64,000 nt of DNA from Leptasterias polaris (taxonomy: Eukaryota > Echinodermata > Asteroidea > Forcipulatida > Asteriidae). The DNA lies in the NCBI GenBank assembly GCA_037783415.1, contig JAZGTN010000097.1, positions 186,001 through 250,000 of the forward strand, in the 5' to 3' direction. Numbering within the stretch: position 1 is the stretch's first letter; every line of letters starts with the position of its first letter. A model generated the notes under the pieces. It made no database searches, was not told the DNA's origin, and saw only the letters and a program-made list of their open reading frames with translations. Below, in pieces: positions 21,001 to 24,000 of the stretch. Made by a program: the position numbers and the translations under genes.

Positions 21001-24000
21001 CTGTGCTCTACTGATGACAAACGGAGCAAACTGTTTGAAATGTTGAGTAAACCACACATACAACAAAGTTTGTATAAATGGTGTTGGCACAAACCTCCAT
21101 CGCACAGAAAGTTATTTTTATTGTTTGCGCTTAATTGATAAAGCAAATGTTTCCCGTTCTCGGCTCTAAACATAATGCTTTCTGTAAAACACCTGTTATG
21201 GTTTAACATTTTCTTTTATATATTTCTTTTACATATCGTAATTAAACATGGCGACCAGTCTACAAGCCCTTTGTTGGGCTCTCGCTCTTGTCTTCAATGC
21301 TGCTGTTCTCAGCCCTCAAAGTAGTCCAAATTGTGTGTCATGTGATAGAGTATTGCCTACTGATCAACCAGGTTACTTTAATCACGGATTTACAGCAGGG
21401 AAAAGGGAAATTTTGAGTGATTTTCACTTAGATTTTCTCCATCTTCAAGCAGTCTTCCAAGCCAACTGCATCATTCACTGCACGCCCGACCAACTCCATT
21501 GTGACAGCCCTGCCAGCCATTGTTCCCACCAAGCATCATGGTGCTACAGCAAGCTTCCTGTTGTTGTGCATCCAATATGGCTGAACAACAAACCACTTCT
21601 CAGAACTGCAACACATAGTAAGTTTGGTAAAGCTCCTGTTGCTTATTACCCCAACTCTACAGCTACATTTAACATCCCTCTCACTGTCTCTGGAGACATA
21701 GAACTGAATCCAGGACCTGTCAAAGATCCCTGTGGCAAGTGTAGTCGTCCAGTAAAATGCAATCAAAGATCTCTCCTCTGTGAGGACTGCAACAAGTACT
21801 GGCACCAGAAATGCATACCTGCTATGACTTTGGACCAGTACAGAGACCTCATATCAAGCACAACAGACTGGTTTTGTCCTGGATGTACTACATCTACATC
21901 TACAGTGTTACCTTTTTCTTCTTGTGGTGATACGTCATTCCAGGATGTCTTCGGTAACGCAAACGAGGACCAGGTAAATGAGCTCCATGAACCAACACCT
22001 GATCCCGGCCTGCATGCACGCTCAAAGAACTCCATTTCGGGATTACTTCTCAACGCTCGTAGCATACGCAGCAAACAACAGGAACTGAAATCATTTTTGG
22101 AACTTAATCCTACAGACATCGTCTGTGTCACCGAAACATGGCTGTCGGCAAGTGACACTGAAACAATCTCTTCATTACCAGGTTACACAACTATCCGGCG
22201 AGATCGAGACAGTCGGGGTGGTGGTATTATGGCCATAATCAACGACACGCTACTCCCAACACATCTCGACCACTTTGATCCGGTGAACATTGAACTCGCT
22301 TGGCTATCGTTAACTGTTAAGCGCTCCAAATGGTTAGTTGGAGTTGTTTACAGGCCTCCAAACTCTGACATATCCTTCTTCGACAAACTTCAAGACTCAT
22401 GTGATGCGATCCAGGCTGTCCTTCCTCAATATGAAGGTCTCATTCTGCTTGGTGATTTTAACATCAACTGGCTAGCTGAGTCTACTGCAAGGGCCAATCT
22501 CCAAGATATCACCGACTCCATTGGACTTGCGCAGATTGTTGAAGATGTAACCCGTCCGTCAAATAACTCGTCCTCAACTGGAACCACAATCGACCTCGTA
22601 TTTACAAACCGGCCTGAGAAATTCTCTGCAGTGGGGTCCTTTGCAAATCCAGTTAGTAGTGACCATCATGCAGTTACCTTCACATTTATTGCCCCCAAAT
22701 ATCTCCCACAACCTGCAGTCATCCGCTCATTTCTGCAATTCCGGAAAGCCGACATGGCACATCTGGAAACACTTCTGCACCTTGCACCATGGTCTGCTTT
22801 CATGGATGATGCTGATCCTGATGCATCATGGGAAGGATTTCTAGATATCCTTGAGGCGGCAACCCATGACAGCATACCTAGAAAACAACGGCGACGCACT
22901 AAATGTTCTCCATGGATCACACCTGAACTAAAGAAACTAATTAACCTGAAGCATAAACTGTTTATTAAAGCCAAGCACTCTGGTACCAGTTCAGCATGGC
23001 TCCAGTATAAGCAGGTCCGTAATAAGGTGAAATATACAACTAAAACATCCTACTGGAACTATGTCAATTGTCTATTTACAACTAGAGACAACAAGCGCAG
23101 TTTTTGGTGTTTCGTCAGAGATCAACGTAAATCAAAGTGTCCAACAGCATTCCAATATGCTGATGAACTGCTCCAGAAACCTAACGATATTGCCCGAGCA
23201 TTCAACGAGTTCTTCACCTCGGTCCACTCTCCAGCAGAAACTTGTCCAGCTACACCGCCACCCTGCACACGTCATATTCCCGAAGTTCCTCCTATTCAAA
23301 TTGAGCTTGGATGGCTGACAAAGTCTCTACACAATCTGACCCCTCACAAGGCACCCGGCCCTGACGGAATTTCACCAACCTTTCTACGATCCACAGCCTC
23401 TTCCATCGCACCGCCATTATTACGCTTGATGAACTCGTCACTTGTTCGTGGTACCCTGCCTGTGGACTGGAAGTTATCTAATGTCACACCCGTTTTCAAA
23501 TCGTCCAAACGAAACGACATCAACAATTATCGGCCGATTGCCCTAACTTCCATTGTCTGCAAAGTGTTGGAAAGGGCAGTCGCTGACAGCATCAATGAAC
23601 ATGTGTCCTCCTGTTGCCTTGGCAACGAAGTCCAGCACGGCTTCACAGTGCGCAAATCGTGTGTCACCCAGCTATCTAATGCCATTTTTGACTGGGCTTC
23701 AATCATGGACAAGCCGCGCCCACCTCGCATCGACATCGCCTTCTTGGACTTTAGAAAAGCATTTGACATCATGCCCCATCACACGCTACTCAATAAGCTC
23801 GCAAGGAACTTCAACATACAGGGTCAGACCTGGACATGGTTAAAATCATTTCTTACCGGACGGCATCAGCGAGTAATGTACCAGGGAGCTTTTTCATCTT
23901 GGTCCCCTGTTACATCTGGCGTCCCCCAAGGAAGTGTCCTAGGCCCTCTATTGTTTAACTTGTTCATCAGTGACATTTCAGAAACCTTAGCCACCAAATC

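Follow-up and report, generated by a model that had tools for sequence, protein, structure and literature searches.

Why would a LINE protein begin with a signal-like leader that a 2A element should then remove? The question arises from the window, the whole 64,000-nucleotide stretch of Leptasterias polaris DNA analysed here, in which one uninterrupted ORF (21248..24826, forward strand, as are all features of the element given below) translates into 1192 residues in the order leader, 2A, PHD, endonuclease and reverse transcriptase (RT). Pfam locates the AP-like endonuclease (Exo_endo_phos) at residues 269-473 (22052..22666) and the RT (RVT_1) at residues 756-999 (23513..24244). The Pygopus-like PHD finger (residues 162-213, 21731..21886) falls under the Pfam cut-off (19.1 bits vs 24), and the same stretch matches Pygopus PHD chains in the PDB (E=2.8e-5). 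The preliminary description, made from the letters alone, thus named the PHD-endonuclease-RT portion correctly.

An AP-like endonuclease and an RT in one ORF, together with dispersed near-identical copies that have a common 3' tail, mark the element as an APE-type LINE. The presence of 2A in LINEs is already known: 2A-bearing APE-type non-LTR retrotransposons were reportedly described in Odon et al. 2013, and the present element likewise encodes 2A in frame within an APE-type LINE protein. Single-ORF CR1/L2 elements (PMC4120745) also have a PHD before the endonuclease-RT in what is apparently one ORF. The likeness to this group is one of PHD resemblance only, and the available part of that source, which treats CR1/L2 elements with an N-terminal PHD, has 0 occurrences of a leader, signal or 2A.

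Copies and relatives of the element

A search of the element's own genome (630 Mb, 334 contigs) gave 42 matches; 39 of 11,747 first-look candidates were scored, so these counts are lower bounds. At least 11 matches span residues 1-1192 at 100%. All 11 full-length copies (L035-L042, L056-L058) were examined along with 13 more (L043-L055), and pairs among the 11 copies of subfamily F1 are 0-6 substitutions apart in as much as 4450 nt. Downstream of the ORF, a 3'UTR of ~935 nt (24827..25761) ends in a GGCCGAATAAATAAT(AAT)n tail (motif at 25729-25761), where the homology of eight copies stops; the (AAT)n tail is found in all eight copies with long 3' flanks. The window holds no second copy, and tblastn with 121 proteins matched this element alone.

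The same genome contains at least eight diverged subfamilies (64-82% identity) with an in-frame leader and NPGP. In the alignment, representatives F1-F8 keep their reading frame through leader and NPGP, and the frame of F9 is likewise intact over the stretch examined. F9 (L080-L087) was found with query P0004, as were three other families (L088-L090), one copy of each of which was examined. Some copies are damaged: L049 and L082 lack the ATG, and the start of L055 is altered. Outside this genome, the metagenomic protein P0002 (1196 aa) is 61% identical over its full length, aligns from residue 7 and shares a 15-residue stretch with the element; it was the single match to a database search with residues 1-260. 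The preliminary description had allowed for a leader peculiar to one copy, but the leader is kept in frame in 11 near-identical copies, eight other subfamilies and P0002.

The leader and enzyme trees disagree over F5 (AU p=0.0014), which joins F8 in the enzyme tree, whereas F6 joins F8 in the leader tree (L048 representing F5, vs L050 and L053); other leader nodes have 46-68% support. This conflict suggests that 5' parts may have been swapped once between subfamilies.

For comparison across LINEs, the database matches used are the best 120 of 179 for the full-length query and the best 120 of 167 for a profile search; 155 proteins from these matches listed, including P0001, make up the set for the association test below. 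LINE relatives are also encoded on at least 34 contigs assigned to bacterial or archaeal genomes (L001-L034); these contigs are probably eukaryotic contamination or host DNA. One protein, P0036, bears the name of a Thiolapillus protein. Viral contigs scanned with queries P0001 and A1 contained no relative.

The rest of the window is also rich in repeats and mobile DNA. What we take to be a DIRS-like element (3389-9471) has inverted terminal pieces and an RT/RNase H ORF, overlapped by a second ORF that has a phage-integrase-like domain, and a hAT-like transposase (11731-13930) occupies two ORFs with a BED zinc finger and a hAT dimerisation domain. Tandem repeats include a satellite-like array at 29746-33087 (a 47-nt unit x 71, 96% matches), 226 nt x 5.8 at 14052-15352, and 13 nt x 35.9 with 100% matches at 45273-45739. 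A short dispersed repeat, GCTTAAGCAGCT..TATGAAATT, adjoins the 5' flank of the LINE (20937-21004) and recurs, in some cases inverted, at 9493-9558, 27674-27709 and 27804-27871. A partial host gene with an NRDE-2 domain (63093-63998) runs off the window.

The 5' end of the element

The 5' flanks of near-identical copies part 0-15 nt before ATGGC(G/T), which places the 5' boundary of the element at its start codon (AAACATGGCGAC, 21244..21255). In this mapping, of one LINE family in one genome, the genomic copies have almost no 5'UTR of their own. What the preliminary description overlooked is that the ATG is where the mobile DNA starts, which makes the leader stretch the 5' end of the element too. 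Shared nucleotides before the ATG number 0-14 in F1 (55 pairs) and 0-10 in F9 (21 pairs; L080 has none), and, from one pair each, 2 in F4, 0 in F5, 3 in F7 and 15 in F8. Within F1 they track sublineages: aaagat in L036-L038, 14 nt in L039/L040, caaa in five copies and none in the window copy. The two flanks of L036 join as one open frame, KKVGINNIRSGNEILTAGK-IANEFNNFFASIG..., which presumably encodes the endonuclease-RT linker of another LINE. Because the flanks join in this way, the bases before the L036 ATG, 9 of them common to L038 and 6 to L037, are probably target DNA. On the simplest reading, transcripts would start a few bases beyond the edge of the element and so include some host sequence.

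Seven of the eight aligned subfamilies begin with ATGGCG, and F3 and F9 with ATGGCT, although just 0-11% of the remaining Ala codons in F1-F8 are GCG. Similarly, four of the five signal-class 2A LINEs on contaminant contigs begin with ATGGCG (L003, L004, L008 and L029, in which GCG is 6-23% of the other Ala codons); L028 begins with ATGCTC. Four contaminant loci of the MGN type, described below, begin with ATGGGT.

This start resembles a TISU/YY1 element, AAACATGGCGAC agreeing at 10 of 12 positions with the TISU consensus SAASATGGCGGC. Against this consensus, 22 copies score 8-12 out of 12, and L052 alone reaches 12. Scores at the low end are unremarkable: eight of the 22 copies score 8, and among the 2497 ATGs of the window 246 score at least 8 and 13 at least 10. 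According to the available part of PMC2518114, human TISU genes have a short 5'UTR (median 12 nt). The element would be like them in having its AUG in a AAGATGGC-like core with a few to ~15 nt before it, as judged from genomic ends. Unlike TISU, which belongs to human cellular genes (PMC2518114), it has flanks that match to the varying degree given above, and a TISU function here is putative.

A promoter at the very start of a 2A-bearing LINE has a precedent in Trypanosoma cruzi L1Tc, which, in the portion of PMC4748587 available, has a 5'-terminal internal promoter (Pr77), RNAs from or near +1, and 2A. The present element resembles L1Tc as a LINE with 2A, and the promoter likeness is putative. 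Unlike L1Tc, for which the same portion reports an HDV-like ribozyme, the element and 12 loci have no Rfam HDV match: scans of 21150-25800 and of these loci gave only sub-threshold matches, none of them HDV, and such a ribozyme was rejected as the maker of the 5' end.

The signal-like start, the leader body and 2A

The preliminary description called the N-terminus hydrophobic and signal-like, and it is: residues 7-16 have a mean Kyte-Doolittle hydropathy of 2.54, within a hydrophobic stretch (residues 5-20, 21260..21307) that overlaps a low-confidence model helix at 4-21. Similar starts were sought with a test cruder than SignalP, its threshold chosen after 21 N-termini were known: a 10-residue segment free of D, E, K and R, lying among the first 32 residues, whose Kyte-Doolittle mean is 2.0 or more. 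In a first set, among the matches listed, 10 of 15 2A-bearing proteins with a leader of at least 75 residues pass vs 2 of 98 Met-starting proteins lacking 2A; internal Mets pass in 39 of 1330 cases. Among the 155 proteins, again from the matches listed, 10/16 2A-bearing proteins pass vs 3/33 matched controls, which lack 2A and have at least 75 residues before the endonuclease. Also among the matches listed, there is no pass in 97 short N-termini (0/97) or where the endonuclease was not located (0/2). P0138, one of the three passing controls, has a signal-like leader and YxNSxAT but NPGW for NPGP, and by its sequence is a natural loss of 2A in a LINE protein.

Of the nine contaminant loci with a closed 5' end and a leader of at least 75 residues, five pass; L005 (open, 1.81) and L032 (short leader, 1.85), which were set aside, would both fail. 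Pooled with the matches listed, they bring the signal-like start to 15/25 2A-bearing proteins vs 3/33 2A-lacking proteins with N-extensions. Clustering of the matches listed leaves 14/21 vs 3/31 at 50% identity (p=2.5e-5), 12/17 vs 2/23 at 40% (p=7e-5) and 4/6 vs 1/11 at 35% (p=0.028). In the element's own genome the test is passed by eight of the nine subfamilies (F3 fails at 1.79) and by L089 and L090, but not by L088. Taken together, these sequence comparisons support the view that 2A in LINE proteins is repeatedly accompanied by a signal-like N-terminus.

Ten of the 25 2A-bearing proteins fail the test, which counts against the explanation preferred below. Most failures belong to another leader type, M-G-x-x-x-x-Y/F/W/H-R-x-x-I-G, in which hydrophobic stretches come later. 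This second leader class before 2A, with an MGNxxxxYRxxIGxF-like start, is seen in P0031, P0032, P0039 and P0050 and in loci L007, L010, L014 and L016, where the start is ATGGGTAAT.

At the DNA level, T occupies 36-50% of second codon positions in residues 1-25 vs 17-25% in residues 26-130, the pattern that retained hydrophobicity would give. Of 13 signal-class starts, 10 are greasiest in their real frame; in the other three (F2, F3 and F4) the +1 frame surpasses it, so the hydrophobicity may partly reflect T-rich DNA.

The leader body (residues 26-125, 21323..21622) is variable, as its codon-position divergence attests, and is candidate promoter DNA. Over 28 subfamily pairs, mismatch at codon positions 1/2/3 is.374/.403/.452 in this stretch,.19/.13/.50 in residues 126-157 and.25/.155/.548 in residues 158-1192; the body is therefore barely protein-like, and the pre-2A tail is constrained like the enzyme. 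Residues 1-25 give.38/.27/.40, with confidence intervals of the contrast that include zero. In F1-F2, the least diverged subfamily pair, omega is 0.47 in the leader body vs 0.05-0.15 downstream. Neutral drift, the outcome that the preliminary description had set against its own proposal, is not what this pair displays, pN being below pS in residues 1-130 (.18 vs.33, p=0.006). The difference is also seen in residues 131-157 (pS.24, pN.07, p=0.046) and downstream (pS.47, pN.08), and is not significant in residues 1-25 alone (pS.20, pN.11, p=0.19). Leader pS is itself lower than downstream pS (0.33 vs 0.47, p=0.015). Strong DNA-level constraint over the whole leader, to which the low synonymous divergence of deep pairs had first pointed, was set aside, since the F5 leader has a different history from its enzyme and third positions in F1-F2 differ by 0.31 in residues 26-125 vs 0.33 downstream.

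The description of the leader as Cys-rich suits the window copy, in which eight Cys precede NPGP, and fails across the aligned subfamilies, where Cys positions are not conserved. A conserved, folded Cys-rich secreted domain was considered and rejected, given the unconserved Cys, the weak constraint and the results of fold searches: the leader has no match in Pfam and a best match of only E=1 in the PDB. AlphaFold, which is weak evidence with a shallow alignment of 13 rows, gives pLDDT <50 over residues 1-159; helices are modelled at 4-21, 54-57 and 63-71, all with pLDDT <50, and the leader is otherwise without structure.

At the end of the leader stands GDIELNPGP (residues 149-157, 21692..21718), in which DIELNPGP (150-157) fits the 2A consensus (D/G/C/N)(V/I)ExNPGP, as the preliminary description had recognised. 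The chain is predicted to break between G156 and P157. In the available part of PMC12846837, upstream classes of 2A span the six residues adjoining the core and include L-rich motifs; the element has SG before D, as in the L-rich classes, but TV where the leucines stand. Further upstream lies a conserved motif, YYPNSTATF (residues 133-141, 21644..21670). Its pattern YxN[SAC]x[ASG]T, defined after such sequences were known, occurs in 13 of 44 2A-bearing sequences from the matches listed and the loci (eight of this LINE family, plus P0003, P0130, P0138, L008 and L090) and has 0 matches in the 126,394 aa of 131 2A-lacking LINE proteins among the matches listed. It is positioned 19-22 residues before NPGP, or 34 in P0003. 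Because this distance is near-fixed, the motif may form part of an extended StopGo context. N-glycosylation was disfavoured as the reason for its NST, the sequon being lost where YxNSxAT stays (NSV in F6 and L008; NSM in P0138).

The 2A signals of sea-urchin NLR proteins, in the portion of PMC4981915 available, also combine an N-terminal hydrophobic sequence with a DxExNPGP core. There, a single unit of 26 residues serves as signal and as 2A, whereas here ~130 residues separate the hydrophobic stretch from the 2A core, and a LINE enzyme is the cargo. In two other LINE proteins, P0097 and P0115, the first 20-24 residues are greasy and 2A at once, like the sea-urchin units.

What the leader may do

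The explanation preferred here, at a probability of about 0.5, is a recently active single-ORF APE-type LINE that begins at its own start codon and whose leader would be translated, directed to the ER and released by 2A to leave a free PHD-endonuclease-RT. It is favoured because of the 11 near-identical copies, the breaks of their 5' flanks at the ATG, the recurrent ATGGCG and the company that signal-like starts keep with 2A. Transcription would begin at the element or a few bases outside it, set by the first codons (the TISU/YY1-like ATGGCG), so that each insertion site would lend the element its 5'UTR, to be exchanged occasionally. During translation the greasy N-terminus would engage SRP and the ER, to which the leader is probably directed; 2A would then free the leader (residues 1-156), and the ribosome would continue from P157. 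The leader body would chiefly have to stay open, perhaps as promoter DNA too, and hence would drift; as protein, selection would keep the pre-2A tail and, less certainly, the N-terminal hydrophobicity. For Ty1 RNA, SRP-dependent translation and co-translational ER localisation are reported in the available part of PMC3945221. Unlike the present element, Ty1 is an LTR retrotransposon and the protein is Gag (PMC3945221), and an ER step in a LINE is what we infer. A membrane-binding esterase in a LINE ORF1 is another precedent, as far as the available account goes. A bolder version, in which ATGGCG acts as an initiator with a host 5'UTR and the leader docks the RNA through SRP at the ER or nuclear envelope before 2A frees the enzyme next to its own template RNA, is rather doubtful.

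The leader could instead be translated only since its AUG sits at the extreme 5' end. In this tentative alternative, its DNA would be the internal promoter and 5' end, 2A would discard the peptide without any ER step, and the hydrophobicity would be a by-product of T-rich DNA. An element without a 5'UTR of its own, a leader body nearly without codon periodicity, the lowered leader pS in F1-F2 and the greasier +1 frame in F2, F3 and F4 all agree with such a translated promoter, as does L1Tc, in which the account cited above combines an internal promoter with 2A. However, T-rich DNA fits poorly with a signal-like start that accompanies 2A across clusters and with a real frame that is greasiest in most signal-class starts, and the third positions of F1-F2 leave strong DNA constraint unsupported.

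LINE enzymes work on nuclear DNA, so that an exported leader-enzyme fusion would have no evident use; this makes unlikely the preliminary suggestion of dual targeting, in which skipping would be partial and the unskipped fusion would purposely enter the secretory pathway. Among sea-urchin NLR 2A leaders, 12 of 14 are predicted signals and one acted as both signal and 2A in reporters, in the part of PMC4981915 available, which is in favour of dual targeting, but those 26-residue units differ from a hydrophobic stretch and a 2A that are ~130 residues apart. A folded Cys-rich effector secreted to act outside the cell would account for the signal-like start and the eight Cys of the window copy; the unconserved Cys, the weak constraint and the lack of a Pfam match, a PDB match better than E=1 or a confident fold make it very improbable. 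Even harder to credit is a leader that is just non-coding 5' sequence read by accident. The leader body does diverge fast, yet start, frame and 2A are kept in the 11 near-identical copies, eight other subfamilies and P0002. Moreover, the next Met after Met 1 is residue 193, inside the PHD finger, and Met 1 being the sole Met before it, internal initiation of an intact PHD-enzyme is ruled out.

What may be new here is the association of a signal-like start with 2A, the near-absence of a 5'UTR and the pairing of a weakly protein-like leader body with a constrained tail. The literature searched, with Odon 2013 and Luke 2014 lying outside it, held no account of a LINE whose 2A follows a signal-like leader, nor of one that begins at its AUG. 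A guess about a LINE signal peptide has thus become two testable regularities: greasy N-termini that go with 2A across LINE clusters, and at least one such family that starts at its ATG and would take its 5'UTR from the host. With copies 0-6 substitutions apart, the family is young enough for direct assay. If the preferred explanation is true, it would explain why such LINEs need 2A and how a promoter can sit inside coding sequence, and it would tie non-LTR retrotransposition to the ER membrane. If the bolder docking version were also true, a signal-like start followed by 2A would be a means, widespread among LINEs, of assembling RNPs in cis at membranes.
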